Virus record (IMG/VR): IMGVR_UViG_3300023223_000955
Coordinates: 1 to 26,348 of that record
Strand: one strand, 5' to 3'
Source: a virus
Length of the DNA stretch: 26,348 nt
Shown here: piece after piece, positions 13,888-14,055 of the stretch
Layout of the letters: each line of letters opens with the position of its first letter
Numbering within the stretch: the stretch's first letter is position 1
Made by a program: the position numbers and the translations under genes
The notes under the pieces: generated by a model
The model's database searches: none
Told to the model about the DNA's origin: nothing
What the model saw: the letters and a program-made list of their open reading frames with translations, nothing else

Positions 13888-14055
13888 TCACCAAATACGC
13901 AGGTGAACAAGTTTGACTGACTTGGTGACTGTGAGCAACGTGGGAATAAGGGTCTCGTAGGGTCTTCCCCCACCAGTGGCAGAGATTACGGCTTAGTCAG
14001 TCATACGATCTTTGCCACTGTTTGATGCTGCACGGGGGCCGCGGTTCCGTGAGAT
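13888..14055 (+). ncRNA. Candidate structured RNA with a long-range pseudoknot
   Basis: No credible gene fits here. Three nested helices are visible: GTGGGAA (13940-13946) with TTC..CCAC (13965-13973); CAGTGGCAGAGAT (13974-13986) with ATCTTTGCCACTG (14008-14020), 13 bp with one G-U; and TGACTGACT (13914-13922) with AGTCAGTCA (13995-14003), nine perfect pairs. The last strand lies in the loop of the 13-bp hairpin, so the fold is a pseudoknot, or the helices are alternatives. CACGG/CCGTG (14031-14051) adds a GC-rich hairpin. The stretch is visibly richer in G+C than its surroundings. Strand is inferred from neighbours and from G-U pairing. Confidence 0.55.

Follow-up and report, generated by a model that had tools for sequence, protein, structure and literature searches.

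Gene content of the window and the tRNA array

The window, the whole 26,348-base stretch of DNA that was analyzed, is a fragment of an uncultured phage that encodes terminase, portal, Mu-F-like, and protease-capsid genes. An initial annotation had placed a compact, pseudoknotted phage noncoding RNA at 13888–14055, in the interval from the end of a 46-aa ORF (13870) to a gene at 14208. As claimed there, the stretch carries no gene (ORFs of at least 50 aa are absent, and the longest is 41 aa). The reported enrichment in G+C holds relative to the surroundings (51% versus about 43%), but nearby coding sequence reaches 53%. The annotation overlooked that the candidate is a member of a tRNA array, and this membership is the best clue to its nature. 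The array consists, in order, of a tRNA-like sequence, tRNA-Met, a structured element (element A), the candidate, and a terminator-like hairpin, with a further tRNA beyond:

13570–13598, + strand: tRNA-like element, 3′ part, comprising T-arm GGAGG-TTCGATT-CCTCT followed by GTTCGCC-G-CCA
13625–13696, + strand: tRNA-Met (CAT), called by ARAGORN
13702–13893, + strand: element A, with tRNA-like ends GATAGCG/CGCTATC plus ACCA around the 46-aa ORF (13730–13870)
13902–14060, + strand: candidate RNA with corrected limits, preceded by the spacer AATACGCA(G) and ending in ..GATCACCA before an AT-rich spacer
14103–14175, + strand: 11-bp perfect inverted repeat TGTTGAAAGCG/CGCTTTCAACA (arms 14103–14113/14165–14175), interlocked with the next hairpin
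14136–14194, + strand: terminator-like hairpin (14136–14187) followed by TTTTTT, found by folding
14691–14773, + strand: additional tRNA gene, D-loop enlarged (Rfam RF00005, 35.9 bits)

The limits given in the annotation were slightly off. Bases 13883–13889 form the 3′ strand of the neighboring element A, and the candidate ends at about 14060. An exact 13-nt repeat, CCAAATACGCAGG, occurs at 13596–13608 and 13891–13903, in each case after a tRNA-like 3′ end. Because one copy follows the first tRNA-like element and the other follows element A, the most natural start of the candidate is 13902 rather than 13888; the spacer AATACGCA(G) that precedes it likewise stands after the tRNA-like 3′ end at 13598. 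Array members in a related phage contig, L002, show the same arrangement of a ..GATCACCA end followed by an AT-rich spacer, and the L002 array has similar repeated spacers. The candidate probably extends over about 13902–14060, or ∼150 bases.

The array transcript likely ends at the terminator-like hairpin at 14136–14194, which a simple terminator scan (loops up to 8 nt) omits. Promoter-like sites did not exceed the number expected by chance. The interlocked repeat and terminator-like hairpin at 14103–14194, before the gene at 14208, may themselves be a pseudoknot, attenuator, or leader element.

A permuted tRNA, with its 3′ half at 13588 (GTTCGCC) and its 5′ half at 13902 (GGTGAAC, 7/7 pairs), was considered and rejected, because one fully paired 7-mer is expected by chance in a 900-nt search. 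The CCAAATACGCAGG flank shared by the two halves is real.

tRNAs of these phages include several in which the D-loop is unusually large or hairpins are inserted and the anticodon arm is poorly formed (window 14691–14773, L003 6271–6355, and L002 6486–6605). Several of the large-D-loop tRNAs of the window, L002, and L003 are missed by standard tRNA finders. A T-arm sequence, GGGGG-TTCGATT-CCCTC, also occurs in L025 (9515–9625) inside a 13-bp stem; a 12-bp palindrome immediately 3′ of this stem competes with it, so that the two hairpins are mutually exclusive.

Pairing in the candidate RNA and its expectation by chance

The following pairing elements were located in the candidate:

13902–13906, + strand: GGUGA, which may pair with UCACC (14055–14059) as the 5′ strand of a closing stem, in the minimum-energy fold of 13902–14062
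13914–13922, + strand: 5′ strand of the crossing helix (UGACUGACU), exact complement of 13995–14003, stacking sum about −17.6 kcal/mol
13940–13973, + strand: P3 hairpin, GUGGG/CCCAC (13940–13944/13969–13973), directly adjoining P4
13974–14020, + strand: P4 hairpin, 14 bp including two G-U pairs, 19-nt loop (arms 13974–13987/14007–14020)
13995–14003, + strand: 3′ strand of the crossing helix (AGUCAGUCA), within the P4 loop, from the crossing-helix scan
14031–14051, + strand: P5 hairpin, CACGG/CCGUG (14031–14035/14047–14051), 11-nt loop

Most of the pairings in the initial annotation were recovered. The perfect 9-bp helix into a hairpin loop is present, with TGACTGACT at 13914–13922 complementary to AGTCAGTCA at 13995–14003 in the 19-nt loop of P4. 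The hairpin that contains this loop exists as described, but it is 14 bp long with its two G-U pairs, not 13 bp. The adjoining GTGGG hairpin (P3), the GC-rich hairpin (P5), and the two copies of GGGTCT, at 13950 and 13960, are all where they were said to be. P5 occupies the place of a tRNA T-arm and lacks a T-loop sequence. The GGUGA closing stem has a competitor, UGGUGA at 13923–13928, which can pair with UCACCA at 14055–14060 or with UCACCAA at 13888–13894.

The best pair of crossing helices has a summed stacking energy of −42.9 kcal/mol, a score that 1 in 1000 dinucleotide-shuffled versions of the stretch attained. It ranks first among 1248 windows scanned on both strands, and the top two of these hold this same pair. 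When the whole 26,348-base window was shuffled with its composition preserved, an equal crossing pair arose somewhere in 5 of 100 shuffles, which puts the selection-corrected chance at about 5%. The latter is the fairer test, because the annotation had singled out the best location anywhere in the 26-kb window. Informally, the location of the pair in the small noncoding part of the window helps its case.

The nested folding energy of the stretch is only mildly better than that of its shuffles (z about −1.7 to −1.94), and its absolute folding energy is the lowest among the 656 windows folded. As a yardstick, z was −4.57 for rnaC and −0.83 for rnaD, two small stable RNAs of phage T4. A modest z leaves room for a real stable RNA, because rnaD itself has a z of only −0.83.

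With both 9-bp strands kept free, 13902–14062 folds at −53.5 kcal/mol, compared with −61.8 kcal/mol when unconstrained. By a rough comparison that adds about −17.6 kcal/mol for the helix and an assumed penalty of 9–10 to the constrained fold, the pseudoknotted and nested states come out nearly equal in estimated energy. A pseudoknot or two alternating folds would therefore both fit, as the annotation had proposed; the near-equal energies do not single out the pseudoknot, which is a likely but putative fold.

Related phages and the conserved element A

Searches of phage, plasmid, and viral collections by DNA pattern, blastn, or covariance model returned no homologue of the candidate. An exact 22-mer and a gapped pseudoknot pattern had no match in viral contigs, blastn against phages and plasmids gave tRNA or chance matches only, and so did Rfam at E values up to 10. 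Alignments of the terminase and capsid identified four related viral contigs, whose terminases are 73–87% identical to that of the window; a terminase alignment against genomes gave no close relative. Four close relatives are too few for an analysis of covariation. The candidate is absent from all four, including those with a terminase 85–87% identical. The tRNA arrays of L002 and L003 contain element A but lack the candidate, and L004 and the contig of L005 gave a single tRNA call each.

The part of the locus that is shared with other phages is element A, not the candidate; it occurs in tRNA arrays of phages whose terminases differ. Element A is common to the window (13702–13893), the two relatives L002 (6359–6480) and L003 (5322–5865), and L023 (5962–6089, reverse strand), in which the terminase gene is different. 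Its ends are conserved (GRTAGCGCARC...CGA and AGGAMTGGC-CGCTATC, sometimes followed by ACCA) and can be interpreted as forming an acceptor-like stem of 7 bp and a T-arm-like hairpin. Its middle is variable, at about 70–520 nt, and two of the phages have different small ORFs inside it. Although 94% of the pair cells are kept, the pairing of element A is not proven either, because no pair has changed on both sides. Element A had no Rfam match, and its pattern gave no further members in viral contigs and genomes among the matches listed. Element A is possibly the more interesting RNA or cassette of the two. Directly 5′ of it in L002 (6277–6350) is a long hairpin (ATTGCCAGG...CCTGGTAAT) that ends in a T-run and resembles a terminator.

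Known phage RNAs and competing interpretations

The closest known parallels are T4 rnaC (139 nt) and rnaD (119 nt), both annotated as small stable RNAs, which directly follow tRNA-Arg at the end of the T4 tRNA cluster. A review (PMC3014915) states that both are transcribed and gives their role as unknown. The two RNAs have been known for decades without a function. Like rnaC (species 1 RNA) and rnaD (species 2 RNA), the candidate is a structured noncoding sequence on the 3′ side of a phage tRNA cluster, is similar in length, and has no Rfam family. It lies within or at the end of the cluster, is noncoding, and falls in the range of about 120–160 nt when its limits are drawn from spacers and pairing. 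The candidate has no sequence or covariance-model similarity to rnaC or rnaD. In addition, the 3′ end of rnaC is formed by a canonical T-arm (CCGGG-TTCGAAT-CCCGG) and an acceptor-like strand after it, whereas the candidate has a 9-bp crossing helix and no T-loop; and the T4 RNAs are known transcripts, whereas the candidate is known here from its sequence.

GOLLD and ROOL are pseudoknotted RNAs of phages and prophages, of unknown function, that are often found near tRNA islands (PMC12286853). The candidate shares with them a pseudoknot, putative in its case, and proximity to phage tRNAs, but GOLLD and ROOL are large (many GOLLD RNAs exceed 800 nt) and conserved, and their Rfam covariance models did not match the candidate at E values up to 10. 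The annotation had recognized no tRNA, tmRNA, riboswitch, or group I intron core in the stretch; by ARAGORN (default settings) and Rfam models the candidate is likewise not a tRNA or tmRNA, and no Rfam riboswitch matched. tmRNA has tRNA-like ends and pseudoknots in its body. The candidate is half as long, lacks a T-arm, and has no identified resume ORF; a tRNA-like domain with a tag ORF was not found by ARAGORN at default settings or by Rfam.

Taken together, the results are best summarized by calling this stretch an orphan candidate stable RNA in a phage tRNA array. We tentatively propose, with a probability of about 0.45, that it is a small stable noncoding RNA and the last member of the array, like T4 rnaC and rnaD. 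The compact, possibly pseudoknotted RNA of the initial annotation is consistent with all results in this form, with its start moved and its place in the array added. This proposal is supported by a noncoding stretch, by crossing helices that local shuffles seldom match and that are the strongest of the window, by the lowest folding energy, and by the tRNA array with its shared 13-nt spacer, terminator-like hairpin, and T4 precedent. Counted against it are the lack of a homologue, the corrected chance of ∼5%, the weak nested z, the near-equal energies, and the lack of a promoter excess.

If the proposal is correct, the candidate would be cotranscribed with the upstream tRNA-like element, tRNA-Met, and element A on a transcript ending at the terminator-like hairpin, and host tRNA-processing nucleases would release it at about 13902 and 14060. 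The released RNA would fold into a closing stem, the stacked hairpins P3 and P4, and the T-arm-like hairpin P5. The 9-bp helix would lock the 5′ segment into the P4 loop, shielding the 5′ end and conferring nuclease resistance. During infection, such an RNA would work in trans. Its most plausible sphere is translation, tRNA biology, or a closely related process, where it might, for example, decoy host proteins that cleave or bind tRNAs. A more specific version seems rather unlikely: an undescribed class of compact, pseudoknotted tRNA-operon phage RNAs that mimic tRNA ends for processing and affect, in trans, host translation or defenses that target tRNAs. The present case comes from one sequence; if unrelated RNAs do occupy the same slot in uncultured phages, phages would repeatedly have used stable RNAs carried in tRNA operons, and comparison among them would give access to their role.

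The main rival, which we consider somewhat unlikely, is that the stretch is a moderately G+C-rich array spacer, or a set of decayed tRNA-like genes, that folds by chance and contains no functional RNA. The whole-window shuffles, the weak nested z, the absence of the stretch even where terminases are 85–87% identical, and the irregular look of the neighboring tRNA-like sequences all fit such an origin. The 1-in-1000 frequency in local shuffles speaks against it, as does the location of the window's best crossing pair in the few hundred noncoding bases of the tRNA array. The competing pairings raise a different prospect, that of a cis-acting switch in which TGACTGACT/AGTCAGTCA and UCACCAA/UUGGUGA plus the closing stem are exclusive folds that control array processing or the gene at 14208. 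Several strong alternative pairings do compete for 13922–13928, and the interlocked repeat (14103–14113/14165–14175) and terminator-like hairpin stand just 5′ of the ORF at 14208. Since 150 bases and that hairpin separate the candidate from the ORF, and Rfam contains no matching riboswitch or leader, we regard a switch as distinctly unlikely.

It is very improbable that the candidate is a tRNA or tRNA-like RNA with large insertions, in which GGUGAAC/GAUCACC would be the acceptor stem (6/7 pairs). Its array position, the spacer logic, a 3′ end in ..CACCA, and the enlarged D-loops of other tRNAs in these phages are compatible with such an RNA, but it has no T-loop sequence, no clear anticodon arm, and no cloverleaf by ARAGORN or Rfam. 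Relaxing these tools gave no match except at intron-tolerant ARAGORN settings, which call tRNAs and tmRNAs throughout and are uninformative. The least probable reading, and one we consider highly doubtful, is a DNA-level element such as a replication origin, recombination site, or packaging site; inverted repeats are present and the terminase gene is about 4 kb downstream, but the stretch has no iterons, the relatives have no conserved site, and RNA genes surround it.

Two further features lie elsewhere in the window. At 15120–15600, the GC skew is strongly negative (down to −0.5), opposite to that of the flanks, and there are few + strand ORFs. The capsid gene at 23689–26202 apparently encodes a protease, an XRE-like helix-turn-helix (about residues 227–303), and a major capsid domain in one polypeptide, which is conserved in all 4 relatives.
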